Shown here: piece after piece, positions 3,901 to 29,743 of the stretch
Numbering within the stretch: position 1 is the first letter of the stretch
Layout of the letters: the number at the start of each line of letters is the position of its first letter
IMG/VR virus record: IMGVR_UViG_3300042882_000020
Span: 1 to 30,153 of that record
DNA length: 30,153 bases
Reading direction: 5' to 3' (one strand)
From: a virus
The notes under the pieces: model-generated
What the model was told of the DNA's origin: nothing
Database searches by the model: none
What the model saw: the letters and a program-made list of their open reading frames with translations, nothing else
Translations under genes and position numbers: made by a program

Positions 3901-6684
3901 GCTGCTCCTATTACTGCCTATGGTGCATTAAACGTTGCTTACTTGGCTGCTAATACTAATGCTCAAACACTGTCAGCAAACGTCAACACTTTGGCAGCCA
4001 CCTTTGTTGCTGCTAATGCTAACAACATTTCTTTGTCTGCTAACGTTAATACCTTGGCTGCTACATTTGTTTTGGCTAACGCTAACTCCGTATCACTATC
4101 AACCAATGTTAATACTTTAGCAGCAAATGTTAACACTTTGGCTGGTGCAGCATATAATAAATCTGGCGGTACCATTTCTGGTGACGTTGCTATTACTGGT
4201 AGTTTGACTGTTAGTGGATCCCAATCATATGTCAATACACAGACACTATTGATTGGTGATAACCTAGTAGTTCTTAATGCTGATCTACCAGGCAATATAA
4301 CACCAACTGAAAATGCTGGCATAGAAGTCAATCGTGGTAGTGCTGCTGCTAATGCTGCTCTAATATGGGTAGAAGCAGCCGATGCTTGGGCATTTACCAG
4401 TAATGCTAATGCCGCTATTACGACATACATTGCATCTAATACTGATATTGCAACTCTAACATCAAATACAGTTTCATTATCAACCAATGTTAACGTATTG
4501 GCTGCTGCTGTAGTGAGTAACAATGCTACTCAGGGTGCTAACATAGCAGTATTAGCAGCATGTACCGCTGGTAAACTAGCCAACACATCTGGCACTTCAT
4601 ATAATGGTGATATATTTGTTCCCGCTGGCAATCTAAGTGTTGGTACTAACAATACAATGCCATCATTTAGGATGCAAGTTTATGATGCTTCAAATGCCGG
4701 TCTAGTATTCAGAAACCCATCAAACTACACAGTATTAGCCCAAAGTGGTAGTGATTACTATGTGGACCTCAATAGAGGTGGAACTGCTGGTAACTTAATT
4801 TTCAGAAACAGTTCAACACTGACCGAAAGACTAAGACTGGATAATGACGGTTTCTTAGGACTTAGTGTAATACCAAGCCCATGGGTATCAACAGCAAGAG
4901 CAATCGATATTGGTGCTTATACATCAATTTCAACAACATCTAATGGTGTTGGATTCTTAGGATTCAATTTATACGAATCATCTGCTGGTGTATTTAATTA
5001 CAAAGCATCTGCTGTTGCCTCTGCTTATATGATGAACTCGGGCGCTCATAGATGGTACTTGGCACCATCAGGAACGGCCGGTGCAGTTGCTACACTCAAC
5101 AATGCATTGACTCTTAACACCGATGGAAATCTTGGTGTTGGTACAGCAGCACCTGTTGGTGTCATCGATTTAGGATCAGGAACTGCTGGTCGTGGTATTG
5201 TTTGGGGTGGTGGTGGAGGACATTATGCTTCTATCTGGACCCCATATAGTTCATCCGGTCTTGTTCTAGGTACCGGTATGAAGGGTAATACCTTTACAGA
5301 TGCATATGATTCTTCATATGGTAGTTCTTCGATATATCGCTCTGCTATTAGAATGAACATGTCAACTGGTGGTATTCAGTTCTTTGCTAATGGTTCACAG
5401 ACAATTGCAGCAAATACGCAGTTTACACCACAAGAAGTAATGAGAATTACTGAAACCGGTAACGTTGGAATTGGTATCACTAGTCCAACATCTAGACTAC
5501 ATGTCAATGCTGCTCCTGCAACGGCTGCCGTAGTTGGTATTCAATCTGCATACTCTAACACAAGTGCATATCTACAATTCTTGAACAGTTCTGGTTCTGA
5601 GATGGGATATGTTGGTTATGGTAGTCCAATATCTGGTCAAATGTATGTTTGGCAAACGCAATCAGAACCTATGGTTTTTGGTACCAATAATACAGTCAGA
5701 ATGTCTATCGGTAACAATGGTAACGTTGGTATTGGCCAGGGTGCAAGTGCTACTTATCGCCTAGGTGTCACATCAGGAGCAGCAGGTATTGGTGTAACAA
5801 CAACATCTTCATCATCTGGTCTTCCAGGACTAGCACTGTTCGAAGGTGCTATGAGTGCTGTATTTACACCATCCACATCTGCTAACACAGTCTATTTTGG
5901 ATCTTATTCATCTAATACAGTATCATTCATCACTGGCAATAGCACAAAGATGACACTTGGTGCTGATGGTAACGTTGGTATCGGTACCGCAACACCCGGA
6001 TATAAACTAGAAGTCAATGGTCCTATCTACACACCAAATGTGGTGAGTAACATACATCAGATGCGTCGTATTGCTTCTGCATCAACTGGTATTAACTGGT
6101 ATTCTCCAACATATACAGCATGGCAAGACTACATGGCACCCGCTGGTGCTGGACAAGGTTGGACAGCAACGGTCACCGCTCCAACAGGTACGTATGTCAC
6201 ATCTTGGGCTAGAAGATCATTTGTTGAAAATACTGCTGGTTATGGTTGGACATGGGAAGCAGGTGGTGGCACATCCACCACACCAACCATTGTAGCGGAA
6301 CTTTCATCTGCAACTGGTAACTTTAGAATTACCGGTGGTCTATATGCTGTAACTAAGTCGTTCGAAATTAAGCACCCAACTAAGCCTGGTATGAAACTAC
6401 GTTATGGATCGCTAGAAGGTCCAGAAAACGGTGTCTATGTTCGTGGTAAACTAGATGGTGAGAAAGTTATTAATCTGCCAGATTACTGGGAAGGTCTAGT
6501 TGATCTAGATACCATCACAGTCAATCTAACTGCTATCGGTCATAGTCAGAATCTATATGTTTCTGATATTGATGGCTTGAAGATTCATATTGATACGGAA
6601 AACCATACACAGCCTTATTGCTTCTATCATGTATATGCAGAACGTAAGGACGTTGATAAACTAGTTGTGGAGTATGAGGAATAA
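961..6684 (+). CDS. Giant tail fibre protein (1907 aa) with stalk repeats
   Basis: GTG start, with a purine-rich site (AAAGGG, 949-954) six bases upstream. Residues 1-~30 ('EFTARHGLIVNNN') resemble the N-termini of phage fibres. Blocks of 18- and 21-residue repeats (SANVNTLAA..., NANNISL) follow, alternating with globular insertions. One is a 'GGTISGDVSITGNL' module present twice. Another is a domain with 'GTQTIDGVAVSAGNRVLVKDQ' near residues 860-980, also found in the second fibre gene. Many 'GNVGIGT..P...L.V' beta repeats fill residues ~540-1690. The C-terminal ~110 residues ('EIKHPTKPGMKLRYGSLEGP') form a conserved end domain seen in marine T4-like fibres; it is not the S74 chaperone. Likely a homotrimeric long fibre. 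The stop overlaps the next ATG by one base. Assignment to T4 gp34 or gp37 is not possible by eye. Confidence 0.85.
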   Translation: MSNKEFTARHGLIVNNNILIVGGTNVIAAIVASQANDVSLSANVNTLAAAFVSNSQSLSSNVNTLAGSFVANSQTLSDNVNTLATTFAAANANNVSLSTNVNVLVASFVSNSQSLSTNVNTLATTFAAANANTVSLSANVNTLAAAVVANDASQGANIAVLAAAFVSNSQSLSANVNTLAASYVTFTNIFSQANANAISLSTNVNTLAATFALANANNVSLSSNVNTLAANVNTLAGAAYPKTGGTISGDVSITGNLTISGNQSYINTQTLLIGDSLLTLNADLPGNITPTENAGIEVNRGSALSNSAFIWNETAEAWQFTSNTTLGSYSTVASLTDVNDAAAGANNYAAATYGTLDSLNANWSLTNSTFSSLGLTFASLSSNWQVTNTTYTQANSGVTIGTNAYAGVNSAFTVLNAAYSVANASNGYAATVGLAANNFAISTYATISNSQSLSANVNVLAATFAAANANNVSLSANVNTLAASFVSNSQSLSANVNTLAGTFSSANANNISLAANLSSAVSYRLANTSGVSFNGDLNFPTGNVGIGTSSASYTLDVVGNTSLSGYLQIPDTTVVSTHGIDPADSTNRVFAVRAYPTLSYNPNSMLNGDSVTAAQFSGVWAPTANTTNTYYGYGFFGSIASDSNITDGYATGDLRGIYGNVYHYSPSYLLRMVGIAGRTYNRSNSIVGSAYSVWARNSTTTGGGFITASYGLYIDAITGGNTNYSIYSAGGQNYFAGNIGIGVTTPAASLHVNGNANIALPNLVVGGTNVIAAIVASNANAVTLSSNVNTLAAAFVSNSQSLSANVNTLAGAFVSNSQSLSANVNILAAAVISNNATQGANIAALAANVNTIAGAITNLTLENVPTAFVKRSVTAATTANIALYGTQTIDGVAVSAGNRVLVKDQTLANQNGLYVVSATAWTRSADADVIGDIASALVAVDAGTTNGGKLYDNDIKITDTLNTTSITWYRIIDDGAIYTYAAPITAYGALNVAYLAANTNAQTLSANVNTLAATFVAANANNISLSANVNTLAATFVLANANSVSLSTNVNTLAANVNTLAGAAYNKSGGTISGDVAITGSLTVSGSQSYVNTQTLLIGDNLVVLNADLPGNITPTENAGIEVNRGSAAANAALIWVEAADAWAFTSNANAAITTYIASNTDIATLTSNTVSLSTNVNVLAAAVVSNNATQGANIAVLAACTAGKLANTSGTSYNGDIFVPAGNLSVGTNNTMPSFRMQVYDASNAGLVFRNPSNYTVLAQSGSDYYVDLNRGGTAGNLIFRNSSTLTERLRLDNDGFLGLSVIPSPWVSTARAIDIGAYTSISTTSNGVGFLGFNLYESSAGVFNYKASAVASAYMMNSGAHRWYLAPSGTAGAVATLNNALTLNTDGNLGVGTAAPVGVIDLGSGTAGRGIVWGGGGGHYASIWTPYSSSGLVLGTGMKGNTFTDAYDSSYGSSSIYRSAIRMNMSTGGIQFFANGSQTIAANTQFTPQEVMRITETGNVGIGITSPTSRLHVNAAPATAAVVGIQSAYSNTSAYLQFLNSSGSEMGYVGYGSPISGQMYVWQTQSEPMVFGTNNTVRMSIGNNGNVGIGQGASATYRLGVTSGAAGIGVTTTSSSSGLPGLALFEGAMSAVFTPSTSANTVYFGSYSSNTVSFITGNSTKMTLGADGNVGIGTATPGYKLEVNGPIYTPNVVSNIHQMRRIASASTGINWYSPTYTAWQDYMAPAGAGQGWTATVTAPTGTYVTSWARRSFVENTAGYGWTWEAGGGTSTTPTIVAELSSATGNFRITGGLYAVTKSFEIKHPTKPGMKLRYGSLEGPENGVYVRGKLDGEKVINLPDYWEGLVDLDTITVNLTAIGHSQNLYVSDIDGLKIHIDTENHTQPYCFYHVYAERKDVDKLVVEYEE
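1053..1680 (+). repeat. Fibre stalk repeat block 1
   Basis: Imperfect tandem 54- and 63-base units encode SANVNTLAA-type modules of 18 and 21 residues (e.g. 'SNSQSLSANVNTLA', 'AAANANNVSLS'). The block runs from the end of the N-terminal segment to the first 'GGTISGD' module. Confidence 0.85.
1630..1929 (+). repeat. Intragenic duplication, copy 1
   Basis: This 300-base stretch encodes 'NVNTLAGAAY' through 'NADLPGNITPTENAGIEVN' to 'FTSN'. It aligns without gaps to 4105-4404 of the same gene. The two copies are strongly similar in protein but diverged at many third positions. Confidence 0.85.
2300..2520 (+). repeat. Fibre stalk repeat block 2
   Basis: Four more SANVN(T/V)LAA units, of both the 'SNSQSL' (18-residue) and 'AAANANN' (21-residue) types. 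They lie between a shaft segment and the first GNVGIGT beta repeat. Confidence 0.8.
3283..3534 (+). repeat. Fibre stalk repeat block 3
   Basis: Repeat units follow a 'VGGTNVIAAIVASNANAVTL' cap, a segment that also occurs near the N-terminus of this protein and in the fibre at 8736. The block leads directly into the duplicated globular cassette. Confidence 0.8.
3535..3960 (+). repeat. Globular cassette shared with the second fibre gene, copy 1
   Basis: This 426-base segment encodes 'LTLENVPTAFVKRSVTAATT' through 'GNRVLVKDQTLANQNGLYVV' to 'IIDDGAIYTYAAP'. It is gap-free collinear with 9510-9935 in the downstream fibre gene and nearly identical in protein, which implies duplication or recombination between the two genes. 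Confidence 0.9.
3940..4155 (+). repeat. Fibre stalk repeat block 4
   Basis: SANVNTLAATF units (21-residue type) end in 'NVNTLAANVNTLAGAAY', the same exit sequence as block 1. Confidence 0.8.
4105..4404 (+). repeat. Intragenic duplication, copy 2
   Basis: Second copy of the 'GGTISGDVAITGSL ... NADLPGNITPTENAGIEVN' module, collinear with 1630-1929. Confidence 0.85.
4465..4560 (+). repeat. Fibre stalk repeat block 5 (short)
   Basis: Two degenerate units ('SLSTNVNVLAAAVVSNNATQ' and 'GANIAVLAA') form the last stalk block of the first fibre before the long run of GIGT-type beta repeats. Confidence 0.65.
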
Positions 6685-8735: not shown

Positions 8736-11204
8736 ATGGCTAATACTTATAAGAACATAGTTATCACACCAAACACAGGATCAACAACCGGTGATCCAAC
8801 AATCGTGTTTTCTGGTGGAGATTCAACGAATAACACTGACATCGAATTAGTTGTATATCCAACAGCAAATGGTACACTGTCATTTGAAGGTACTGCTGGT
8901 CAGTTGTTCTCAATCACAAATGATCTATCAAACACTATCTTTTCAGTTAACGATGTATCTGGACTACCGCTAATCGAGGTCAATGTTGCTTCACAACGGA
9001 TTACACTCGGCCAGTATTATGGTAACGTTGGCATTGGTACCGCAGCAGGTAACTCAAGTAATTATAAGTTAGATGTCGCTGGTGGTGCTAATATCTCTCT
9101 ACCCAATCTTACTGTTGGTGGTACAAACGTTATTGCTGCAATCGTCGCTAGTAATGCAAATGCGGTCACACTATCTGCTAACGTTAACGTATTGGCTGCC
9201 ACATTTGCTGCTGCTAATGCTAATAATATCTCTTTGTCTGCTAACGTTAACGTATTGGCTGCCACATTTGCTGCTGCTAATGCCAATAACATTTCTTTGT
9301 CTGCTAACGTCAATACCTTGGCTGCATCTTTTGTATCTAATAGCCAGACATTATCTGCTAACGTCAATACCTTGGCTGCATCTTTTGTATCTAATAGCCA
9401 GACATTATCTGCTAACGTCAATACCTTGGCCGCCACCTTTGCTGCTGCTAATGCCAATAACATTTCTTTGTCTGCTAACGTAAACTTGATAGCAGGATTA
9501 ATTACAAATCTAACTCTAGAAAACTTGCCAAGTGCGTTCGTTAAGAGATCCGTAACTGCGGCAACAACCGCTAATATTGCATTATATGGAACACAAACGA
9601 TTGACGGTGTTGCTGTCTCAGCAGGCAATAGAGTTCTAGTAAAAGATCAAACATTAGCAAACCAGAATGGTCTTTATGTAGTTTCAGCAACAGCATGGGC
9701 AAGATCCGCTGACGCTGATGTTATTGGTGATATTGCTTCCGCAATGGTTGCTGTTGATGCTGGTACAACTAATGGTGGTAAACTATACGACACCAATATC
9801 AAGATCACTGATACCCTAAACACAACAAGTATTGTATGGAACAGAATCATTGATGATGGTGCTATCTATACATATGCTGCTCCCGTAACCGCATATGGTG
9901 CCCTTAACGTTGCTTATATAGCAGCAAATACAAATGCTATATCTTTGTCTGCAAACGTCAATACCTTGGCTGCCACATTTGCTGCTGCTAATGCTAATAA
10001 TATCTCTTTGTCTGCTAACGTTAACGTATTGGCCGCCACATTTGCTGCTGCTAATGCTAATAATATCTCTTTGTCTGCTAACGTTAACGTATTGGCCGCC
10101 ACATTTGCTGCTGCTAATGCTAATAATATCTCTTTGTCTGCTAACGTCAATACCTTGGCTGCATCTTTTGTATCAAATAGCCAGACATTATCTGCTAACG
10201 TTAACGTATTGGCCGGCAATAAATTATCAAACGTGTCAGGCACATCATTCAACGGCAATTTCTTTGTACCTGCTGGTAACGTTGGTATTGGTACTGCATC
10301 ACCAATATTCAGACTACAGATTTTAAAAACAGGGCCAGCATCGGCGACCGCCGATATTGGAACCGGTGACGGAAATAAGTTTTTATATCTGAATAGTAAT
10401 ACGTCACCAGGATCATACAATGGAATGGTCCAGGCCAATGACGTATCTATAATTTATGGTGTAACAAATGGTGCAGATGTCAGTCCGAGTGGAATGGTAA
10501 TTGCCCCTTGGTCAGGATCTAATCGTGGTATTCGTATAGATAACGGTGGTAATGTTGGTATAGGCAAACCAATACCAACCGCACCATTACATGTAGCACA
10601 TGCAACCACAAATCCCCTAGCGGTCTTAGAATCTACAGGAACACAAGATATCGCTCTGTGGTTTACTAGATCAGGTACAGCAAAATGGTATGTATATAAT
10701 GACAATGCCTCAAATGGTCTAAATTTTGGTATTAACGGCGGCCTTAACCCAGCACTAAAAATCACTTCAGCCGGTGTTGCGATGTTTAGTGCCGCAGCAA
10801 ACACTACATCACTTGGTGTTGGTACTGCTGCATCTGGTGTCACTGGTGAAATTAGAGCAACCAACAACATTACTGCTTACTATTCTTCTGACAAATCTCT
10901 AAAAGAGAATATCAAACGTATTGAAAATGCTATTAAAAAGATCATGTCGATCAGTGGTGTTGAGTTCGATTGGACTCAAGAGTTCATTGATGCTCATGGT
11001 GGTGAGGATGGTTACTTTGTTCGTAAACATGATGTCGGTGTTATTGCACAGGACATTGAAAAGGTGTTACCAGAAGTAGTTGCAACCAAACAAGATGGTA
11101 CCAAAGCAGTTAAGTATGATCGAATTGTTGCTCTACTAATTGAAGCAATCAAAGATCAACAAGAACAGATTGATGAACTGAAACGTTTGAAATCTAATAA
11201 CTAA
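8736..11204 (+). CDS. Tail fibre protein with C-terminal S74 intramolecular chaperone
   Basis: ATG with AGGA four bases upstream; 822 residues. The N-terminal ~100 residues ('NTYKNIVITPNTGSTTGDPT') are a beta domain. Stalk repeats (SANVNVLAATFAAANANNIS) follow in two blocks around a globular cassette shared with the gene at 961. GIGT-type beta repeats come next ('GNVGIGTASPIFRLQI', 'GNVGIGKPIPTAPLHV'). The C-terminus from about residue 718 is a peptidase S74 / endosialidase-type chaperone: 'SSDKSLKENIKRIENAI', 'VGVIAQDIEKVLPEVV', then a terminal helix 'LLIEAIKDQQEQIDELKRL'. In this family the domain folds the trimer and then cuts itself off before a Ser of an SD pair; Ser718-Asp719 and Lys723 fit. 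Likely a receptor-binding fibre or side fibre. Confidence 0.88.
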   Translation: MANTYKNIVITPNTGSTTGDPTIVFSGGDSTNNTDIELVVYPTANGTLSFEGTAGQLFSITNDLSNTIFSVNDVSGLPLIEVNVASQRITLGQYYGNVGIGTAAGNSSNYKLDVAGGANISLPNLTVGGTNVIAAIVASNANAVTLSANVNVLAATFAAANANNISLSANVNVLAATFAAANANNISLSANVNTLAASFVSNSQTLSANVNTLAASFVSNSQTLSANVNTLAATFAAANANNISLSANVNLIAGLITNLTLENLPSAFVKRSVTAATTANIALYGTQTIDGVAVSAGNRVLVKDQTLANQNGLYVVSATAWARSADADVIGDIASAMVAVDAGTTNGGKLYDTNIKITDTLNTTSIVWNRIIDDGAIYTYAAPVTAYGALNVAYIAANTNAISLSANVNTLAATFAAANANNISLSANVNVLAATFAAANANNISLSANVNVLAATFAAANANNISLSANVNTLAASFVSNSQTLSANVNVLAGNKLSNVSGTSFNGNFFVPAGNVGIGTASPIFRLQILKTGPASATADIGTGDGNKFLYLNSNTSPGSYNGMVQANDVSIIYGVTNGADVSPSGMVIAPWSGSNRGIRIDNGGNVGIGKPIPTAPLHVAHATTNPLAVLESTGTQDIALWFTRSGTAKWYVYNDNASNGLNFGINGGLNPALKITSAGVAMFSAAANTTSLGVGTAASGVTGEIRATNNITAYYSSDKSLKENIKRIENAIKKIMSISGVEFDWTQEFIDAHGGEDGYFVRKHDVGVIAQDIEKVLPEVVATKQDGTKAVKYDRIVALLIEAIKDQQEQIDELKRLKSNN
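9139..9498 (+). repeat. Fibre stalk repeat block 6, with exact 54-base tandem copies
   Basis: 63-base units (21 residues) and 54-base units (18 residues) alternate. The 54-base units at 9300-9353 and 9354-9407 are identical base for base, which indicates recent duplication or gene conversion. Confidence 0.9.
9510..9935 (+). repeat. Globular cassette shared with the giant fibre, copy 2
   Basis: Gap-free counterpart of 3535-3960, encoding 'AFVKRSVTAATTANIALYGT' to 'IIDDGAIYTYAAP'. Protein differences are few (e.g. NVPTAF versus NLPSAF) while many synonymous bases differ. Confidence 0.9.
9948..10215 (+). repeat. Fibre stalk repeat block 7, with exact 63-base tandem copies
   Basis: Three consecutive 63-base units at 9948-10010, 10011-10073 and 10074-10136 encode 21-residue modules; the last two are identical in DNA. 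An 18-residue unit and a truncated unit ('SANVNVLAGN') follow. Confidence 0.9.
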
Positions 11205-18855: not shown

Positions 18856-20733
18856 TTGCGTTTATTTGGATTTGAGATAGGTTCGCCCGAAAAGGATAAA
18901 ACGGACCTAAATTTAAACGGACCCAAGACAAAGACATTCGCACTACCTCAAAATGAGGATGGTGCTGTCACTGTTGCTGGTGCCGGTTATTATGGTACAT
19001 ATGTAGACCTTGATGGTACATTCAGAAATGAAACGCAACTTATCACTAAGTATCGTGAACTTGCCATTCAACCGGAAACAGAAAGTGCTTTGGACGAAAT
19101 CGTCAATGAAGCAATTGTTCATGAAGATGGTGGTAAGTCAGTAGAGATTAATCTAGATGATGTTAAAGCACCCGCTAAAGTAAAGAAGATCATTGAAGAA
19201 GAATTTGATCTACTCTTAAAGATGCTTAACTTTAGTAATATGGGGCATGAAATCTTCCGTCGTTGGTACATTGATGGTAGACTATTCTACCACTTAGTAT
19301 TAGATGATGCAATGTTAGAAGCCGGTATTCAAGAAATCAGATATATCGATCCCCGCCGTATCCGTAAGATACGTGAAATTCAAAAGATGCGTGACCCTCA
19401 GACAGGCATCGAACTAATCAAAAAACAGATTGAGTATTACCTTTATAACGAAAAGGGTATGATTGGTGCAGGCACTAATCTAGGCTCAAAGATTGCTATA
19501 GATTCTGTAGTCAACGTTAACTCGGGTCTAATGGATCCTAAACAGACTATGGTTCTTTCTTATCTACACAAGGCAATCAAACCATTCAACAACCTACGCA
19601 TGGTTGAGGACGCAACTGTTATCTATCGTCTAAGTCGTGCTCCTGAGCGTAGAGTGTTCTATATCGACGTTGGTAATATGCCAACAGTTAAAGCCGAGCA
19701 GTATGTCCGTGATATCATGGTTAAGTATCGTAACAAGTTAGTTTACGATTCTAATACTGGTGAAATCAAAGACGACCGCAAACATCTATCAATGCTGGAA
19801 GACTTCTGGTTACCACGTAGAGAAGGTTCTAAAGGAACCGAAATCTCTACACTAGAAGGTGCACGTAACCTTGGTGAACTAGAAGATGTTAAGTATTTCC
19901 AGACCAAACTATACAAGTCGCTTGGTGTTCCAATCTCAAGACTAGAACAGAATCAAGGGTTCTCACTAGGTCGCACCACAGAAATCACAAGAGACGAAAT
20001 CAAATTTATGAAGTTTGTTCAAAGACTTCGTAACAAGTTTGCTACTCTATTTGATGATCTTCTTCGTGTTCAACTTGTTCTAAAGAAAGTTTGCACAGAA
20101 GATGAATGGAAAGAAATCAAAGAAGATATCTGGTATGATTTTAAGAAGGACAACAACTTCGATGAAATCAAAGAAGCAGAACTTCTAAACATTCGTCTTG
20201 ATACACTCATTAAAGTCGATCCATTTGTTGGTAAGTATTATTCTGCGTTGTGGGTTCGTAAGAACATTCTACATCAATCTGATGATGACATTGAAGAAAT
20301 CAATGCACAGATGGAAGAAGATAATGCTATCCTTGCTCAACAGCAGCAACAGATGGCAATTGATCAGCAGGCTCAACAGCAACAGGATATGCAGAATCAG
20401 ATTGAGTTTGGTGCTGCACAGCAGATTGCACAAGCACAAACACAAAAAGAAGTTGACAAGATTACTGGTCCTGATCAAGGCCCATCTAAGTCGGAAGCAC
20501 AAGGACGTGATCACGAATCCAAGATGATGGATAAGAAGATCGAACTAGAAAAGATCAAGTCTAAGAAGTCTGCTGCTCCCGCTAAGAAACCAGCAGCCAA
20601 GAAGAAAACAGTTGCGGAAGAAGCAAGAGATTTAGGTCTATTGTATATGGGTAATAACCAATATGCCACTGGTGATGGTAAGATTACACATATCAATGAA
20701 AACGGTATACTCAAAGTAATAATTAAGGAATAA
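18856..20733 (+). CDS. gp20: Portal vertex protein gp20 with extended C-terminus
   Basis: Starts at TTG 18856, with AAAGGA (18843-18848) seven bases upstream and no better in-frame start. The product has 625 residues; T4 gp20 has 524. Portal signatures include 'NETQLITKYRELAIQPETES', 'IFRRWYIDGRLFYHLVLDD', 'IDPRRIRKIREI', 'RVFYIDVGNMPTVKAEQYVR', 'DFWLPRREGSKGTEISTLEG' and 'LYKSLGVPISRLEQNQGFSL'. The portal dodecamer nucleates the prohead and is the packaging channel. From about residue 485 the protein has a Gln-rich stretch, then a Lys/Ala-rich linker ('SAAPAKKPAAKKK'), and ends in a small domain 'RDLGLLYMGNNQYATGDGKI'. This extension is beyond the T4 protein and probably faces the head interior or the core. 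Confidence 0.95.
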   Translation: MRLFGFEIGSPEKDKTDLNLNGPKTKTFALPQNEDGAVTVAGAGYYGTYVDLDGTFRNETQLITKYRELAIQPETESALDEIVNEAIVHEDGGKSVEINLDDVKAPAKVKKIIEEEFDLLLKMLNFSNMGHEIFRRWYIDGRLFYHLVLDDAMLEAGIQEIRYIDPRRIRKIREIQKMRDPQTGIELIKKQIEYYLYNEKGMIGAGTNLGSKIAIDSVVNVNSGLMDPKQTMVLSYLHKAIKPFNNLRMVEDATVIYRLSRAPERRVFYIDVGNMPTVKAEQYVRDIMVKYRNKLVYDSNTGEIKDDRKHLSMLEDFWLPRREGSKGTEISTLEGARNLGELEDVKYFQTKLYKSLGVPISRLEQNQGFSLGRTTEITRDEIKFMKFVQRLRNKFATLFDDLLRVQLVLKKVCTEDEWKEIKEDIWYDFKKDNNFDEIKEAELLNIRLDTLIKVDPFVGKYYSALWVRKNILHQSDDDIEEINAQMEEDNAILAQQQQQMAIDQQAQQQQDMQNQIEFGAAQQIAQAQTQKEVDKITGPDQGPSKSEAQGRDHESKMMDKKIELEKIKSKKSAAPAKKPAAKKKTVAEEARDLGLLYMGNNQYATGDGKITHINENGILKVIIKE

Positions 20734-20734
20734 C

Positions 20735-23533
20735 ATGTCTGTTAAATCTATCGACGTTCGAACACCAGGATACGCTGCAATCGCTAAGAAATGGAATCTT
20801 TCCATGTCAAAGGTGATTGAACTTGTTAACAAAGGTGCGAAGGTAGAACAAGAGCATACAAAAAGTTTAGAGAAGGCGAAACAGATTGCCAGAGATCATA
20901 TTGCTGAGAGACCAGATTACTATAAAAAACTGCATAAGATGGAAAAATCTCCAATAGAAATGAACGAAGAAAACGTAACAGGTGCTGTTCGTGGTCTAGG
21001 ATATGTTACTGGTGATCCTGGTGTTGATCCTGTATCACAGTATACCACAAATAATGCTATGTCCTATAGTGACATAAACGGTAGCATACTAAAACTAATT
21101 AAAGATAAACACAATAAGCATTTGAAGGCTATGGGATTTTCATCTTATGATCCAACTGCAACCAACACTAACAAAGTTGTTGCTGAAGATGTTTTAAATG
21201 AACTCGGTAGCATGATGCAAGATGGTATGCCTGGTACTGTAGGAATTACTGATCCTCCACCAAAACTAAGAAAGAATGATTCGGTAGATGAAGGCAAGAA
21301 GTTAGAGAAAGCAAAGAAGGCTGTCATGGCCGGTATTACCGCTGCTAACATATATACTTTAGGTGATGTTGCTGGTAAAGCAACAGAAGGTCGTGGTTCT
21401 CCTAAGAGAGATATTGTTGCTGCCGCTACTACATTACCTGGCGCCGCTGGTTGGGGTGCTACAGGCGTTCATTATGCTAAGAAAGCATACGACTACGTTA
21501 AGAGGAAGAAAATGAACGAAGAAAAGAACGATCTTAAAGGTGCTTGCTGGAAAGGTTATACTGCCAAAGGTCTAAAGAAAAAAGGTGGTAAGATGGTTCC
21601 TAACTGTGTTCCTGTTGAGGAAGGTTGGGCATTAATCGGGCGTCCATTTACTAAATTGGGTGACCGTAATCCTAATGCACAGTTTTATGGTGGTAAGCCT
21701 AAACAAACCACTACTAAGAATGATGAGAAAGATAATACCTATAAGAACTCAAAGCAGGGTGGTACTAACGTAAATAAGGTTAAACCTGTTAAGGAAGATG
21801 CTGTTACAGTAGCAGCAACCCAGCATATGGACACAGCACAGTCTGGTTATCAACAGTCTGCTAAGCCATCAAGAAGCCGTGTAAATCTAAGAGGCACAAC
21901 CGCACATGTCAAAGGTGCCGAGTATAGATCAGGAACAGGTTCAGCAAGAGCCTCACTAGGTGCTGGCGGACAGATGAAGCCAACTAGCACTAATGTTCCC
22001 ACCAGATTTATGCGTAGTGTTAAGAACGCTCCATCAACACAGGGAGCAGGTGGTCAGCTAAAGCCTTCTAGCACATCTGGTTCATCATCATTTACACCTA
22101 ACTCCCAGAGCCGTTCAATGAATGTCGGTAAGGGAATGGCAGCATCAAAGCAGACAAGTCCGGTTGTTAAGGGTATGTCAGCCGCAGGTCAGGAAGCATC
22201 TAAGAAGATTGTTCCTAAGGCCGCCAGTGTAATGGCTACAGTAGGTAAAGCCGCAAGAGCATTGAGTGGACCAGAAGGCGCAGCAGTTACCGCAGCAGCC
22301 GAACCGCTAGCCAAAAAGATGGCATCATCATATAAGGCAGGTCATCAGAGTTTTGCTTCACACGGTTCAGAAGGTGAAAAGACTTCAACCGTATTTGCTA
22401 GAATGAAACAACCTTCACAAGGCCGTTCAGTTAGCCAGTATGAAAAAGACGTTCTAACACCTAAGGCATCAGAAGCACCTAAGGCTCCAGAAAATCCAAA
22501 GGTAGATGCTCCAACACCTCCATCAAGACCAGATTACTTTACTCATGGTCAAGCATTTGGTGCTGCTCGTAAAGAAGCAGGCGGTGGAGAAGGTAAGTTC
22601 TCTTATCAAAGTAGTTCTGATACTGCACCAAAAACATATCAGACAAACGTATCTGGTGAAAAATATAAACCAGAAGCACAGTTGAAACCGACCAGTGTTA
22701 AGGAAGATTGGCAGTCAGTCAATCGTAAAGACAAAACCGATGGACTATCACAGAAGGCAGTTAATGCATATAAGCGTGAGAACCCAGGTTCTAAACTACA
22801 GACTGCTGTTACAGAAAAGAATCCATCTGGTAAAAGAGCAGCACGTAGAAAGTCATTCTGTTCACGTATGAGTGGAATGAAAGCCCGTTTAACTTCTGCT
22901 AAGACTGCAAGAGATCCAGATTCAAACATCAACAAGGCACTACGCCGTTGGAACTGTGAGGAACAAGTTCAAAACGATGAGTTGAAAAAAGCAACTCTCG
23001 CTTCTTACATCAAGAAGGCTTCTGATAGCCGTGCAAAGCATCAGGGTGATGCTGAGTTTTATCAGAAAAAAGGTGTTACTAATAAAAACTATAAAAAGTA
23101 TGGTAAGGCATTGAACAAGGTATCTAATCGTAGAAATGGTATTCACCTAGCCGCTGATAAACTCGCAAGAGAAGAAGTAGAGATTAACGAGTTAGAAGCA
23201 GAAACACTTGGTTCATACACAAAGAAAGCAGCCAAGTCACGCAAGAAGTCCTTACACGGTCCTAAGCCAGATTTGAAGACCTGGTCCAAGAGACAACAGG
23301 GTATTCAAAGAGCCATATCAAGATTGACATCAGTGGAAGAAAATCATAACAGTTCATTACACGAGGAAACTAAAATGGATAACAAAGTAATAGTTAACGA
23401 AGCAATCGAAAACATCTTAGATGGTAACCTAAATGAGATGAAAGAAAACTTGCTTGTTGCACTACAAGAAAAGACTCAAGAGAAACTAGAAGAACGCAAG
23501 AAAATCATTGCTTCTCAGTATTTCGGACAGTAA
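20735..23533 (+). CDS. Mosaic head/core protein (932 aa) ending in a gp67-like segment
   Basis: ATG one base after the gp20 stop, AAGGA at 20725-20729. It occupies the place of T4 genes 67/68 but is far larger. Visible modules: residues ~25-75, 'HTKSLEKAKQIARDHIAERP', a phage domain resembling DUF5661; ~185-260, small hydrophobic Gly/Ala helices ('AAATTLPGAAGWGATGVHY'); ~268-298, a Cys motif 'GACWKGYTAKGLKKKGGK...PNCVP'; ~400-660, low complexity with three 'QxKP(T/S)S' repeats; ~669-743, a basic 'ARRKSFCSRMSGM...ALRRWNC' domain resembling DUF6321; ~750-880, two related basic segments ('LASYIKKASDSR', 'LGSYTKKAAKSR'); 881-932, a gp67-like acidic helix. The net basic character suggests an internal, DNA-contacting head protein. 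Function is inferred from position and composition only. Confidence 0.8.
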   Translation: MSVKSIDVRTPGYAAIAKKWNLSMSKVIELVNKGAKVEQEHTKSLEKAKQIARDHIAERPDYYKKLHKMEKSPIEMNEENVTGAVRGLGYVTGDPGVDPVSQYTTNNAMSYSDINGSILKLIKDKHNKHLKAMGFSSYDPTATNTNKVVAEDVLNELGSMMQDGMPGTVGITDPPPKLRKNDSVDEGKKLEKAKKAVMAGITAANIYTLGDVAGKATEGRGSPKRDIVAAATTLPGAAGWGATGVHYAKKAYDYVKRKKMNEEKNDLKGACWKGYTAKGLKKKGGKMVPNCVPVEEGWALIGRPFTKLGDRNPNAQFYGGKPKQTTTKNDEKDNTYKNSKQGGTNVNKVKPVKEDAVTVAATQHMDTAQSGYQQSAKPSRSRVNLRGTTAHVKGAEYRSGTGSARASLGAGGQMKPTSTNVPTRFMRSVKNAPSTQGAGGQLKPSSTSGSSSFTPNSQSRSMNVGKGMAASKQTSPVVKGMSAAGQEASKKIVPKAASVMATVGKAARALSGPEGAAVTAAAEPLAKKMASSYKAGHQSFASHGSEGEKTSTVFARMKQPSQGRSVSQYEKDVLTPKASEAPKAPENPKVDAPTPPSRPDYFTHGQAFGAARKEAGGGEGKFSYQSSSDTAPKTYQTNVSGEKYKPEAQLKPTSVKEDWQSVNRKDKTDGLSQKAVNAYKRENPGSKLQTAVTEKNPSGKRAARRKSFCSRMSGMKARLTSAKTARDPDSNINKALRRWNCEEQVQNDELKKATLASYIKKASDSRAKHQGDAEFYQKKGVTNKNYKKYGKALNKVSNRRNGIHLAADKLAREEVEINELEAETLGSYTKKAAKSRKKSLHGPKPDLKTWSKRQQGIQRAISRLTSVEENHNSSLHEETKMDNKVIVNEAIENILDGNLNEMKENLLVALQEKTQEKLEERKKIIASQYFGQ
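23364..23377 (+). promoter_or_regulatory. Internal ribosome binding site and ATG within the 932-aa gene
   Basis: AGGAAACTAAAATG is identical over 14 bases to the ribosome-binding/start region of gp23 (27775-27788) and close to that of gp19. The ATG at 23375 is in frame with the large gene and has a 7-base spacer from GAGGA (23363-23367). It could start a separate 52-residue core protein. Confidence 0.55.
23375..23533 (+). CDS. Possible nested gp67-like prohead core protein (52 aa)
   Basis: This in-frame reading of the last 52 codons of the 932-residue gene has its own strong ribosome binding site. The product ('VNEAIENILDGNLNEMKENL', 'EKTQEKLEERKKIIASQYFG') is an acidic/basic amphipathic helix. 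It resembles small T4 gp67-type prohead core proteins and the N-terminus of the protein at 24839 ('LVESILTGDNVEASKLFES'). Two readings are possible: an ancestral separate gene 67 that lost the upstream stop and is now fused, or a fusion product only. The start-site sequence favours at least some independent translation. T4 gp67 is somewhat longer (about 80 aa). Confidence 0.45.
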   Translation: MDNKVIVNEAIENILDGNLNEMKENLLVALQEKTQEKLEERKKIIASQYFGQ

Positions 23534-23544
23534 AGGATTACAAT

Positions 23545-24345
23545 ATGAAAACCTTAAAGCAGATTCGTGAAGAATACAATGATAAATTTTTGGCAAAGGT
23601 AGACGAAAATCTTCCTGATGAACTTATGCTTGAGGGTTTTGAGAAGCAGAAATCAAAGAAGATATCAAAAGCATCACCAATTCCTTCTAGTAAGGAAATG
23701 CCTGTTATGCTTATCTTCCGTAGAGTCCAGTATAGAGTGTTCCCTAATAATCAGGTCGTTGCACTCTACTACTCTAATATGGTCAATAAGTATCTTTCTA
23801 TCCCATTTGGGTCAGATGGTAATCTAAATCTAAGTGAGTCATCTATATTGGATGAAGATCAATTGGATGAGAATCCTGCTGCGGCTGCTGCTGCGGTTGA
23901 TGCTGGCATGGAAGTCGCTAAGGCAGTTGGTAAGTTTGTTCTTAAACCACTAGGTGACAATCCCCATAAACTAGGTCAAGAAAAAGCAGCCGGCTCTGGT
24001 ATCAGCAAGAGATCATCATGGGATAAGGCTAAGCCAAAATATGGTGCTACTACACAGTCTAAACTAGGACAAGCAGACCTTGCCCAGGCTAGAAACATCA
24101 CATCACAACAGAAACAAGTGCAAGAAAACAAAATGTCAGACCTGAGAAAGATGGTCAATGAAGGTGTTGAAGTTAAAACACTTACAATCAATGAAAGACA
24201 GGTTGACATAAATATAGGTATGGCAAAAAGAATCCTTGAAGTTTACGATTCGGTCAATGCTAAGAACAAGAAGATTGTTGAAAGTATGTTAAACGAGGAC
24301 CTTGAATCCTTCAAGAAACTATTAAACTTCTCAATTAGGAAATAA
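23545..24345 (+). CDS. Putative prohead core protein, gp68-like (266 aa)
   Basis: ATG with AAGGA (23533-23537) seven bases upstream. The N-terminus 'KTLKQIREEYNDKFLAKVDE' is a charged helix like the capsid-targeting sequences of T4 core proteins. Residues ~50-85 ('MPVMLIFRRVQYRVFPNNQV', then 'ALYYSNMVNKYLSIPFG') match a beta segment I associate with gp68-like proteins of T4 relatives. A low-complexity middle contains an Ala run. The C-terminal ~60 residues ('TINERQVDINIGMAKRILEV', 'VESMLNEDLESFKKLLNFSI') form a helical domain recurrent in T4-like head proteins. The location between portal and protease supports a core role. Identity with T4 gp68 is tentative. Confidence 0.65.
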   Translation: MKTLKQIREEYNDKFLAKVDENLPDELMLEGFEKQKSKKISKASPIPSSKEMPVMLIFRRVQYRVFPNNQVVALYYSNMVNKYLSIPFGSDGNLNLSESSILDEDQLDENPAAAAAAVDAGMEVAKAVGKFVLKPLGDNPHKLGQEKAAGSGISKRSSWDKAKPKYGATTQSKLGQADLAQARNITSQQKQVQENKMSDLRKMVNEGVEVKTLTINERQVDINIGMAKRILEVYDSVNAKNKKIVESMLNEDLESFKKLLNFSIRK

Positions 24346-24347
24346 CA

Positions 24348-24842
24348 ATGGCAACAACATTAACTCGACAAACATTAGTAGATACCAATAGACACTCAGT
24401 TATCAAGGTTGTTGGTTCTGGTGGCACAGATGCAAACGTTTCGTTAGTAGTTGCTGCCAATCTAGCATATGCTATCAACGCTACTGGTGTTGTTAGCACA
24501 TCAAACCCAAAGCGTCTCAATAGAGTTGCTATTAAACGTGTTTGGGGTCAGGGACAACTATCAACTGGTTCTGTTACATTGAAGTGGGGTGGCAATTCTA
24601 ATAATGCCATCGTTACATTTGGTAACGGTCCATTCGATTATAACTTTGATGCTGGTAGTACCGCTGGTACAATCGAGATCCCAGACACAGCAAACTGCAC
24701 TGGTGATATTCTATTCTCTAGCACAGCAGGTGCAACTGATACTTGGACACTATTCATTGATCTCAAGAAAGACGGTCGTGATTATGATCAGGGTCAAGCA
24801 AGAGATCCAGCAGCCTTCAACTCAGGGAGATTTGGCGGATGA
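24348..24842 (+). CDS. Conserved beta-rich virion protein (164 aa), function unknown
   Basis: ATG two bases after the previous stop, AGGA at 24337-24340. Residues: 'TLTRQTLVDTNRHSVIKVVG', 'KRLNRVAIKRVWGQGQLSTG', 'VTLKWGGNSNNAIVTFGNGP', 'FSSTAGATDTWTLFIDLKKD', and the end 'GQARDPAAFNSGRFGG'. The alternating hydrophobic pattern without helices suggests a compact beta sandwich. I recall similar proteins in cyanophage-type T4 relatives in the head gene cluster. A capsid decoration or head-internal role is possible but unproven. The stop overlaps the next ATG by four bases (ATGA), indicating translational coupling. Confidence 0.75.
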   Translation: MATTLTRQTLVDTNRHSVIKVVGSGGTDANVSLVVAANLAYAINATGVVSTSNPKRLNRVAIKRVWGQGQLSTGSVTLKWGGNSNNAIVTFGNGPFDYNFDAGSTAGTIEIPDTANCTGDILFSSTAGATDTWTLFIDLKKDGRDYDQGQARDPAAFNSGRFGG

Positions 24843-25714
24843 GAGACTTAGTTGAATCCATTCTAACTGGTGATAATGTTGAGGCTTCTAAGTTATTTGA
24901 ATCTCATATGGATACTATCCTTGAGAAGAAACTGTATGAGATAAAGCGTTCTATTGAGATTTCTGAGGTCGTTACTCCTGTTAAGGGTAAGCCCGGACAG
25001 TTCAAAGGTCAGAATACTAAAGCCGATTGGGCAAAGTATAGAAAAGAACATCCAGCATTTGGTATGCATGATGTACCAACTAAGACTGGTAAGCCTAAGA
25101 AGCAAAAGGCACCAGAGCATGAGAAAACATCATCAGGTGGGTTGACTAAGGCTGGTATTGAGGCTCGTAGAAAAAAAGGATATCTTCAAGCACATCCAGC
25201 ATTAAAGTCATTAGAGTTTATTAAAAAGGTAACACACTATCATAAAACAGGTGAAGTTACTGAAAGTAAAAATAATGATTTAAGTGCTTTAAGTGGAACA
25301 CCTATTGGTCGTGCTACACAAGCAGCGGCCGGTGCTGAACGACAGGCAGCCGACGGTGGAGAGCCACCAAGAAAACCAGAGTCCATGAGAGTTTCTGCAA
25401 AGAAACCTGAAAAGGGTGGAGAAACAACATCTGGTATGAAACAAGTTGTCAGACAGATGTATAGAAAGAAAAAAGATACTACAAAAGGACTTATTGGTCA
25501 AGGACTAAAAACTGTTTTGACAGGAAGAACAAGTTCTGGTCGTAAATCTAGCCGTGTTACTGCGGCACAAAGAGTTGGTGCTCTTGTTGGACATAAATTA
25601 AAACAAGCAGCAAAGACTGATACAGGCAGAGTTGCAACTGGTGTTGGCAAGGCCGCTGCTCACGCATGGAGTCAGTCATTGTCAAAAGGCATGACTGGAC
25701 CACTAGAGGAATAA
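24839..25714 (+). CDS. Basic prohead core / internal head protein with gp67-like N-terminus (291 aa)
   Basis: ATG overlaps the previous stop (ATGA). The first ~43 residues ('LVESILTGDNVEASKLFES', 'ILEKKLYEIKRSIEISE') are a gp67-type helix and parallel the tail of the 932-residue protein. After this the protein is strongly basic and low in complexity: 'KPGQFKGQNTKADWAKYRKE', 'GGLTKAGIEARRKKGYLQA', 'KQVVRQMYRKKKDTTKG' and a Gly/Ala helix 'VTAAQRVGALVGHKLKQAAK'. This suggests an N-terminal capsid-targeting piece, removable by gp21, fused to a DNA-binding payload packed inside the head, as known for T4 internal proteins. The payload function is not recognisable. Confidence 0.65.
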   Translation: MRDLVESILTGDNVEASKLFESHMDTILEKKLYEIKRSIEISEVVTPVKGKPGQFKGQNTKADWAKYRKEHPAFGMHDVPTKTGKPKKQKAPEHEKTSSGGLTKAGIEARRKKGYLQAHPALKSLEFIKKVTHYHKTGEVTESKNNDLSALSGTPIGRATQAAAGAERQAADGGEPPRKPESMRVSAKKPEKGGETTSGMKQVVRQMYRKKKDTTKGLIGQGLKTVLTGRTSSGRKSSRVTAAQRVGALVGHKLKQAAKTDTGRVATGVGKAAAHAWSQSLSKGMTGPLEE

Positions 25715-25732: not shown

Positions 25733-26380
25733 ATGAAACTTATTACAGAAGAAATTACAGACATTCAGTATCTTGTTGAAGAAGATGGTAAAGGGGGCAA
25801 GAACCACTTTATCACCGGTATCTTCATGCAGGCTGAAAAGCGGAACCGTAATGATCGTGTATATCCAATGAATGTCCTCGCTAAAGAGGCAGACAGATAT
25901 AACCGTGAATACGTTTCTAAGAACAGAGCATTTGGTGAACTAGGTCACCCAGAGAACCCACAGATCAACCTAGATCGTGTATCCCATCTTATTACTTCAC
26001 TACATCCAGATGGGACAAATTTTATTGGTAAAGCAAAAATTTTGGATACTCCTAGCGGTAAAATTGTTAAGAGTTTATTAGATGGTGGTGGAAATCTTGC
26101 TGTGTCAACAAGAGGCGTAGGGTCTCTAAGGGCACACAATGGTTATCAACAAGTTCAAGACGACTATAAGTTGGCTACAGCGGCAGACATTGTAGCAGAT
26201 CCATCATGCGAAGCAGCATTTGTTCAAGGTATTATGGAAGGTAAAGAATGGGTTTTTGAAAATGGTCGTTGGAAAGAACAAGAGTATTATGCTGCTAAGA
26301 AACTTATTAAAGAAGCGTCTAAAAACGAAATTGAGAATGTAGCCTTGGAAATTTTCAAGAATTACATGTCAAAACTTTGA
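25733..26380 (+). CDS. gp21: Prohead core protease gp21
   Basis: 215 residues, close to T4 gp21 (212). The fold family (peptidase U9 / herpes assemblin-like) is shown by 'KNHFITGIFMQAEKRNRNDR', 'RAFGELGHPENPQINLDRVS' with probable catalytic His72, 'LLDGGGNLAVSTRGVGSL' with probable nucleophile Ser125, and 'ATAADIVADPSCEAAFVQGI'. The His-Ser spacing of about 53 agrees with the T4 enzyme. It resides in the prohead core, activates itself, then cuts scaffold, core proteins and gp23 after (L/I)xE. The only upstream purine tract is 12 bases from the ATG, an unusually long spacer. Confidence 0.95.
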   Translation: MKLITEEITDIQYLVEEDGKGGKNHFITGIFMQAEKRNRNDRVYPMNVLAKEADRYNREYVSKNRAFGELGHPENPQINLDRVSHLITSLHPDGTNFIGKAKILDTPSGKIVKSLLDGGGNLAVSTRGVGSLRAHNGYQQVQDDYKLATAADIVADPSCEAAFVQGIMEGKEWVFENGRWKEQEYYAAKKLIKEASKNEIENVALEIFKNYMSKL

Positions 26381-27756: not shown

Positions 27757-27785
27757 TTTAGTTAAACAGAAAGAAGGAAACTAAA

Positions 27786-29126
27786 ATGTATCTTACAGAA
27801 AATCTAGAGTCAAAGTGGTCCCCAGTTCTGGACCATTCTGGTCTCAATCCTATTAAGGACACTTATCGTCGTGCTGTTACTGCCGTTATTCTTGAGAATC
27901 AGGAAAAGGCAATGGCCGAGGAAAGCCGCACACTAAACGAAGCAGCACCAACTAACTCTGGTGGTGGTCTCGGTGCAGGTACTAACATTGGTTCATACGA
28001 CCCAATTCTTATCTCACTAGTTCGTCGTGCCCTTCCAAATCTAATCGCTTATGACGTTTGCGGCGTTCAGCCAATGACCGGTCCAACCGGCCTAATCTTC
28101 GCTATGCGTTCTAAGTATAAGACAATGGGTGGTACAGAAGCCCTATTCAACGAAGCAAATACAGCCTTCTCAGCAGAGAACAATGCATTTGGTCTTGGAA
28201 ATGGTATTCATCCATCAGGAAACAACAACCCATTTGCTGACACCACACTTGCTGGTAACTCATTCCCAACTGGTACCGGCATGACTACAGCACAGGCAGA
28301 AGCACTTGGTGACGCTGCCAGCAACATGTTCAATGAAATGGCATTCAGCATTGACAAGGTTACCGTTACTGCAAAGTCACGTGCCCTCAAGGCAGAATAC
28401 ACCACTGAACTTGCTCAGGATCTTAAAGCCATTCACGGCCTAGATGCTGAAACAGAACTAGCAAACATCCTATCAACTGAAATCCTAGCAGAAATCAATC
28501 GTGAAGTTATCCGCACGATCTATCGTTCTGCAACCCTAGGTGCTCAGTATGGTGTTACAACTGCTGGTACTTTCGATCTTGACACCGACTCAAACGGTCG
28601 TTGGTCAGTTGAAAAGTTCAAGGGTCTAATTTTCCACATTGAACGTGAAGCCAACGCTATTGCTAAGGCAACCCGTCGTGGTAAGGGTAACGTTCTGATC
28701 GTTTCATCAGACGTTGCATCTGCCATGGCTATGGCTGGTGTTCTTTCTTACACCCCACAGTTGTCAGCAGACCTAACAGTTGACGATACTGGTAATACCT
28801 TCGTTGGTATGCTACACGGCCGCATTAAGGTTTATATCGATCCTTACTTCGGTGGTTCAGCAAACGGCGACGAACTAGTAACCGTCGGCTATCGTGGTGC
28901 ATCACCATTCGACGCTGGTCTATTCTACTGCCCATACGTTCCACTACAGATGGTTCGTGCTATCGGTCAGGATACCTTCCAGCCAAAGATTGGCTTCAAG
29001 ACTCGTTACGGCATGGTTGCAAACCCATTTGCTACCACCGCTGGTGACGGTGTTGTTGGAACCCGTGATGTCGCTGGTCAGACCAACATCTACTATCGCA
29101 TTTTCAGAGTAAGAAATTTGACCTGA
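27786..29126 (+). CDS. gp23: Major capsid protein gp23
   Basis: ATG with AAGGA seven bases upstream; 446 residues (T4 gp23: 521). Conserved capsid stretches: 'SDYDPILISL'-type 'GSYDPILISLVRRALPNLIA', 'DVCGVQPMTGPTGLIFAMRS', 'SRALKAEYTTELAQDLKAIH', 'LANILSTEILAEINREVIRT', 'GKGNVLIVSSDVASAMAMAG' and 'YFGGSANGDELVTVGYRG'. The N-terminal ~52 residues form the propeptide; 'TLNE|AAP' (cut after Glu52) fits the gp21 consensus. The codons are enriched in C-ending forms and GC is visibly higher than in neighbours, as expected for the most abundant protein. A double hairpin follows the stop. Confidence 0.97.
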   Translation: MYLTENLESKWSPVLDHSGLNPIKDTYRRAVTAVILENQEKAMAEESRTLNEAAPTNSGGGLGAGTNIGSYDPILISLVRRALPNLIAYDVCGVQPMTGPTGLIFAMRSKYKTMGGTEALFNEANTAFSAENNAFGLGNGIHPSGNNNPFADTTLAGNSFPTGTGMTTAQAEALGDAASNMFNEMAFSIDKVTVTAKSRALKAEYTTELAQDLKAIHGLDAETELANILSTEILAEINREVIRTIYRSATLGAQYGVTTAGTFDLDTDSNGRWSVEKFKGLIFHIEREANAIAKATRRGKGNVLIVSSDVASAMAMAGVLSYTPQLSADLTVDDTGNTFVGMLHGRIKVYIDPYFGGSANGDELVTVGYRGASPFDAGLFYCPYVPLQMVRAIGQDTFQPKIGFKTRYGMVANPFATTAGDGVVGTRDVAGQTNIYYRIFRVRNLT

Positions 29127-29170: not shown

Positions 29171-29197
29171 GCCGGGGAGTCAATCCCCGGCTTTTTT
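29171..29197 (+). terminator. Strong intrinsic terminator after gp23
   Basis: Stem GCCGGGG (29171-29177) / CCCCGGC (29185-29191), loop AGTCAAT, followed by six T (29192-29197). It ends the capsid transcript and blocks reading into the opposite-strand HNH gene. On the minus strand the same stem is followed by AGTTTTG, which may allow weaker termination of the HNH transcript. Confidence 0.92.
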
Positions 29198-29683
29198 GTG
29201 TCTCCATCTATAGTGTTGTTCTACATTACTCACTGAGATTTCTTTTTGACATATTACACAGGAACATATTCTCTGTCGCCTACCCTTCTTGGCAACAGAC
29301 ATTTTATTTAATGATTCACAACTATAAGTTCTTCCTTTATTCGCTTTACCATAATCATTACCTTTCATCTTTTTAGAAAGTTTTTCTTTTTGACCTTTTC
29401 TTTGCCATCTTTCTTTTGCAGATTCAGACATTTTTTCTTTTTGTTCTATAGGTTTCGAAACACCTTTTAGAGCAACCTTCACCGCTTCTATTCTTGCTTC
29501 TTCTCCAGTGATTAGACCTGACAAGCATCTCCAAGCAATGTGGTCGTATTCACTACCGTGTTCTTCCCACAATGCTTTATGTGCTAAAGCGTGTTCTTCT
29601 ATTGTTAATTCTATGAGATTAGAGGGATCGTCAGTGCCTCCCATATGTCGAGGTACGATGTGGTGAGTATGATAAATAGTCAT
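29180..29683 (-). CDS. HNH homing endonuclease with NUMOD3-like and zinc-finger regions
   Basis: Start set at ATG 29683, with AAGGAG (minus strand, 29698-29693) nine bases upstream. The longer reading from 29740 would add 19 residues ahead of this site. The 167-residue protein has an HNH nuclease motif near the N-terminus: 'YHTHHIVPRHMGG' (His7-His8), Asn22 in 'SNLIELT', His31/His35 in 'EEHALAH'. The middle is basic with NUMOD3-like DNA-binding repeats ('SESAKERWQRKGQKEKLSKK', 'KGRTYSCESLNKMSVAKKG'). The end carries a CxxC...HxxxxH finger (Cys142, Cys145, His157, His162). It is the only minus-strand gene in the window and appears to be a free-standing homing gene inserted after gp23. Its stop lies in the terminator loop. 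Confidence 0.87.
   Translation of the reverse strand: MTIYHTHHIVPRHMGGTDDPSNLIELTIEEHALAHKALWEEHGSEYDHIAWRCLSGLITGEEARIEAVKVALKGVSKPIEQKEKMSESAKERWQRKGQKEKLSKKMKGNDYGKANKGRTYSCESLNKMSVAKKGRRQRICSCVICQKEISVSNVEQHYRWRHKKAGD
29671..29678 (+). promoter_or_regulatory. Putative plus-strand late promoter (GATAAATA) inside the HNH gene
   Basis: GATAAATA on the plus strand, 88 bases before the ATG at 29767, lies within the 5' end of the oppositely directed HNH gene. It would supply transcription to the tail gene beyond the gp23 terminator. Confidence 0.4.
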
Positions 29684-29743
29684 AGGCTGGTGCTCCTTTA
29701 CAGCATTAGAGTGGGTGAGGACTGCAATCCTGTGACCCACATC

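Follow-up and report, generated by a model that had tools for sequence, protein, structure and literature searches.

A gp67-like prohead core gene nested in frame in a large head gene of a T4-like phage, and its probable expression as two products

The head cluster and its long gene

The stretch of DNA analysed here, referred to as the window, is a virus record of 30,153 bases that contains the tail and head cluster of a T4-like phage. The order of genes is gp19, gp20, an open reading frame (ORF) of 932 amino acids, genes for proteins of 266, 164 and 291 amino acids, gp21, gp22 and gp23. The portal gene gp20 (18856..20733, plus strand) lies directly upstream of the long ORF (20735..23533, plus strand); in T4 and in L178, a sister lineage, it is gp67 that is found directly after gp20. 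The genes that follow on the same strand encode the 266-residue protein (23545..24345), which is a homologue of the 233-residue product of the gene after the standalone gp67 in L178, the 164-residue protein (24348..24842), which is a homologue of the L178 161-residue protein, the 291-residue protein (24839..25714) and the gp21 prohead protease (25733..26380).

The long ORF begins with a DUF5661 domain (residues 16-71), which is followed by a variable basic middle, a DUF6321 domain (residues 665-739), two 'SYxKKA' stretches and finally a gp67-like module. No direct repeats were found within the gene. Elsewhere in the window, the gene at 8736-11204 encodes an 822-residue protein with a C-terminal Peptidase_S74 chaperone domain (residues 718-782), which is likely to be a fibre with a self-cleaving chaperone. 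A short minus-strand ORF immediately following gp23 (29180-29740) gives a weak match to HNH endonucleases (E 4.9e-4, just below the Pfam cut-off) and is possibly a mobile endonuclease.

The internal start and its conservation

The sequence AGGAAACTAAAATG is found at 23364-23377, in frame and 52 codons ahead of the stop of the 932-codon ORF. It belongs to a candidate internal translation start (23363..23377, plus strand) that consists of GAGGA at 23363-23367, a spacer and an ATG at 23375. The 52 codons from this ATG (23375..23533, plus strand) have their frame and stop in common with the long ORF and encode MDNKVIVNEAIENILDGNLNEMKENLLVALQEKTQEKLEERKKIIASQYFGQ. The only other copy of AGGAAACTAAAATG in the window is in the initiation region before gp23 (27775-27788, plus strand), which confirms the preliminary description of 14 in-frame bases identical to the gp23 start. 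These are still the only two sites when two mismatches are allowed, against 0.5 expected. The gp23 starts of relatives read GAAAGAAGGAAACTAAAATG in nine of ten distinct sequences and the likeness to the nested start is therefore not an isolated chance; the gp19 start of the window is also similar (AGGAGAAAACTAAAAATG). The identity with gp23 is best read as the clade's apparent preference for one strong initiation sequence for abundant structural proteins, and recombination between the nested start and gp23 start sites is possible.

RAGGA precedes five of the 157 internal in-frame ATGs in the genes of the window, and the one at 23375 is the sole case in which it ends 7 bases before the ATG. The predicted folding of this start region is -3.3 kcal/mol, compared with a mean of -4.1 at real starts, and the region is predicted to be more open than 91% of internal ATGs. 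Predicted pairing of the Shine-Dalgarno (SD) sequence to the anti-SD sequence is moderate at -5.9 kcal/mol and equal to that of gp23 (-5.7), and pairing as good as this occurs at 14% of internal ATGs. The exact late promoter TATAAATA is absent just upstream of the nested start; its only exact plus-strand copy in the window is at 8706. The long ORF contains a second SD-like internal ATG at 21512 (GAGGAAGAAAATG, KRKKMNEEKND) that is common to the relative L002 at the protein level, and in a comparison by eye this context was not seen in the other relatives printed.

Relatives were obtained from scans of IMG/VR by protein, by alignment and by DNA pattern, which gave 52 distinct module DNAs, or 51 after a truncated duplicate was dropped. 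The internal ATG is kept in all of them, 51-54 codons ahead of the stop except in L002. GAGGA, AAGGA or GAGGT is present 4-7 nt upstream of the ATG in 45 of 46 sequences, and GAGGA or AAGGA is present at exactly 7 bases in 42 of 46. Weaker SD elements are found in L039 (GAGAAAACAACAATG only), L093 (GAGGTAACTAAAATG) and L064 (GAGGACACTAAAATG), while in L038 and L041 the spacer is one codon shorter and the SD is kept. Identity at individual bases is 100% at -11 and -10 (AG) and 98% at -9 to -6, compared with 62-64% at -13, -15 and -16. The ATG and SD are thus kept at the nucleotide level even where amino acids, spacing or flanking domains change. The preliminary description had named as contrary evidence a set of relatives with no conserved ATG or ribosome site at this point; alignment to the relatives revealed both to be conserved. 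In L002 (2838-3203) a domain of about 70 amino acids is inserted between the conserved internal start, which retains GAGGAAACTAAAATG, and the gp67 module, giving a predicted internal product of 122 amino acids.

All sequences have G as the third base of the SD codon, which is GAG (Glu) in 43 and AAG (Lys) in 7. The share of GAG among Glu codons upstream is 17%. On a tree of 50 sequences built from a codon alignment this third base changed 0 times, compared with 2-10 times at each of 13 Glu/Lys codons within the module (mean 7.2), while the first base, which switches the residue between Glu and Lys, changed 4-5 times. As the relatives share ancestry and are not independent, which tree counts address but do not remove, the difference between 0 and a mean of about 7 changes is a descriptive contrast and not an exact probability. 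A third base that stays fixed while the residue switches between Glu and Lys points to selection on the RNA and not on the protein, and as judged from these aligned codons the constancy is a mark of selection for the internal start.

The gp67 module, its fusion and its separate counterparts

The last 52 codons of the 932-residue gene were initially described as gp67-like, and this identification holds for the family of modules. By itself the window module matches PHROG 1064 'prohead' only weakly (E 0.0025), while 35 of the 46 aligned family members match it at E<=0.01, the best at 3.3e-6. When the nested modules are combined in a profile, its alignment with T4 gp67 extends over 39-42 residues, which is most of the helical hairpin, and its alignment with the product of the standalone 50-residue gene of L178 over 46-47 residues. 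The predicted structure of the module is a helical hairpin with helices at residues 3-15 and 19-51 (mean pLDDT 94). Searches for related solved structures returned only weak helical matches, and the best match in the fold search was an uncharacterised phage protein of 63 residues (E 0.02, TM 0.96), the helical hairpin being an undiscriminating shape. The window module ends in SQYFGQ with no acidic C-terminal tail; this tail is also absent from the standalone L178 (50 residues) and Cr30 (55 residues) genes and hence was not treated as defining. Most module members contain (I/V)NEA at module residues 7-10, which is a candidate gp21 site. Assignment of the 52 codons to the T4 gp67 family is weak on the single sequence and firm for the family, and a function in the prohead core would be expected from this homology.

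The two parts of the gene are fused in frame, with no stop between them, in 51 of 51 distinct relatives. The fused ORFs have between 177 and 1163 codons, with 242 and 273 in the shortest that lie wholly within their contigs, and the in-frame upstream part ranges from 125 to 1112 codons, with at least 190 where the contig is uncut. These upstream parts are strongly mosaic and vary greatly in length and domain content. Fused relatives reach down to 58% module DNA identity and the unfused state is found only in the more distant L178, Cr30 and T4, a distribution from which we judge that the fusion is old. Searches of bacterial and archaeal genomes found no relatives, and none of 50,697 phage records was an isolated phage with either the module or the 266-residue neighbour. 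A search of seven long records (92-174 kb) found no strong full-length match to gp67 other than the nested module; the remaining matches were weaker, nearby and in other frames. This fits the nested gene being the gp67 of the clade.

In L178 the gene order is gp20, a 50-residue gp67, genes for 233, 161 and 298 residues, and gp21. The short gene is separate, the order is otherwise that of the window, homologues of the 266-, 164- and 291-residue genes precede gp21, and gp21 itself is 61% identical to that of the window. The order in T4 is gp20-67-68-21, and Caulobacter phage Cr30 has gp20, a 55-residue gene, a 342-residue gene and gp21; the Cr30 55-residue gene is unmatched by the nested-module profile and is placed by position only. 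Judged by these three neighbourhoods, the short piece of the window has the position of a gp67 gene that stands alone in other lineages: it occupies the slot of T4 and L178 gp67, after gp20 and before the gp68/gp21 genes, but is fused to an inserted upstream gene. A homologue of the upstream part without the gp67 module is also known, as a separate 665-residue protein of cyanophage DSL-LC02 that likewise contains DUF5661 and DUF6321, ends just after DUF6321 and is encoded near the terminase genes. The suggestion that the parts might be separate genes in relatives is thus correct for L178 and T4 (gp67) and for DSL-LC02 (the upstream part), but not within the window's own clade.

Two products from one gene

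Taken together, the comparisons make it highly probable that one gene yields two proteins in the same frame, a free gp67 and a long internal head protein that bears the gp67 module. The long product appears to be under selection, since no relative breaks the frame, and so does the short product, since all of them retain the internal start. The preliminary description had proposed, as one of two possibilities, that a long fused protein and a short free one are both translated, and this comparison, with the fusion open and the ATG and SD kept in 51 relatives, strongly supports that proposal. We infer that both proteins are made, and that core function, targeting and cleavage take the following form. 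Ribosomes starting at 20735 would produce the long internal head protein that ends in the gp67 module, while those starting at the strong internal site (GAGGAAACTAAAATG, start 23375) would produce free gp67 as an ordinary component of the prohead core. The C-terminal module would allow the long protein to co-assemble into the core and so to be packaged in the head, and gp21 would cut near (I/V)NE-A at module residues 7-10 and release it. One stretch of DNA would in this way probably serve two products, including a free protein of only 52 residues.

If only the long protein were made, the EETKM stretch could be kept as a feature of the protein, for example as a site of gp21 cleavage or as a linker, with its likeness to a ribosome site a by-product. 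Many junctions contain Glu-Glu-Thr, and cleavage by gp21 takes place after (L/I)-X-E (PMC9026906), a sequence that some junctions provide as IHE, IKE or LHE. However, [LI]xE fits only 17 of 52 junctions, on which count a strict (L/I)xE protease site was rejected, and the residue of the SD codon switches between E and K. A protein feature also cannot account for the constant third-base G in twofold-degenerate codons (0 changes) and leaves the conserved Met in a variable linker unexplained, and we consider it quite unlikely that the long protein is the sole product. Conversely, the short gp67 could be the only functionally important product, the in-frame link being fortuitous or of use only in sparing a stop codon; in T4 the prohead core contains free gp67, which is present in about 340 copies and is cut by gp21 (PMC9026906, PMC9958956). 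A fusion under no selection should acquire stops or frameshifts, yet all 51 relatives keep the frame free of stops although the length immediately upstream has changed many times, which makes a dispensable link highly improbable.

The junction could also be a recombination anchor for swapping variable upstream domains, with translation there being incidental. The strong mosaicism of the upstream parts (ORFs of 242-1163 codons with different domains) next to conserved junction DNA is consistent with this, as is the occurrence of the same 14 bases before gp23. The changes observed in the SD codon (GAG to AAG), in the spacer and at neighbouring bases nevertheless leave both the purine core of the SD and the ATG intact in every case, a pattern that fits the needs of a ribosome site and not those of a homology anchor. 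Incidental translation is in our view very unlikely, though a recombination anchor and an internal start could both be true at once. The other origin considered in the preliminary description was that two genes had recently lost the stop that separated them, which would leave the old ribosome site as a relic. Standalone gp67 genes in L178 and T4 and the standalone upstream homologue in DSL-LC02 show that both parts occur as separate genes in other phages, but the relatives that carry the module are all fused, even at 58% DNA identity, and a relic would have decayed, whereas comparable codons changed 2-10 times and the SD third base 0 times. With a fusion that is old and uniform in the clade, recent stop loss was rejected as hardly credible.

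The arrangement is closest to that of C and nu3 in lambda, where C (4418-5737) and nu3 (5132-5737) are annotated in the same frame. In both cases the 3′ end of a larger head gene contains a scaffold or core gene in the same frame and with the same stop, and the features of the lambda type (a same-frame internal start, the same stop and a ribosome site under selection) are all found in the window's clade. The proteins themselves differ. The lambda host gene encodes the prohead protease and its nested gene the scaffold, whereas in the window the host gene encodes a variable DUF5661/DUF6321 protein, the nested product is a T4-type gp67, and the protease (gp21) and the scaffold (gp22) are separate. 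The window is thus a new case of in-frame nested head genes with a different protein pair, and an independent one within the T4 lineage of a head-core gene nested in another head gene, in which the separate parts of the pair are still visible in other lineages. A search of the open literature found no description of a nested or fused gp67 arrangement, and no paper on DUF6321. A gp67 gene would be overlooked if this clade were annotated in the ordinary way.

Within T4 itself there are three points of comparison. The T4 gene 67 (PIP, prohead core) resembles the nested gene in its family by profile, its place directly after gp20 and its helical region, but is a separate gene of 80 residues with a long acidic tail, while the window module has 52 residues, lacks the tail and is fused to a protein of 880 residues. 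T4 gene 21 also has an in-frame internal start in a head gene that gives a shorter essential product, gp21s (annotation; PMC9026906); there the short product is a shortened protease, while that of the window is a different functional unit which is a separate gene elsewhere. The capsid targeting sequence of T4 internal proteins is a short peptide through which a variety of proteins enter the prohead core, and gp21 removes it (PMC9026906, PMC9958956); the core-targeting role proposed here for the gp67 module is similar. The T4 sequence is N-terminal and has 10-19 residues, while the proposed module is C-terminal, has about 50 residues and is itself a core protein.

A broader reading, which we put forward tentatively and hold to be somewhat less than an even chance, is that the clade makes swappable large internal head proteins with gp67 as a C-terminal packaging tag, plus free gp67, from one gene. 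The upstream domains would then be head-bound cargo, possibly injected into the host, and the junction would be both start site and module boundary. This would provide a simple route by which a core protein becomes a C-terminal packaging tag for varied cargo while its free form is retained.

The 266-residue protein encoded at 23545-24345 starts with MKTLKQIREE in several relatives and has conserved ends and a hypervariable middle, and it may carry an N-terminal core-targeting peptide. The N-terminal 39 residues of the 291-residue protein encoded at 24839-25714 form a second gp67-like module (PHROG 1064, E 1.4e-4, over the first 46 residues) and the remainder is basic and rich in Lys and Arg, so that a gp67-like module may be used twice in the cluster, at opposite ends of two proteins.
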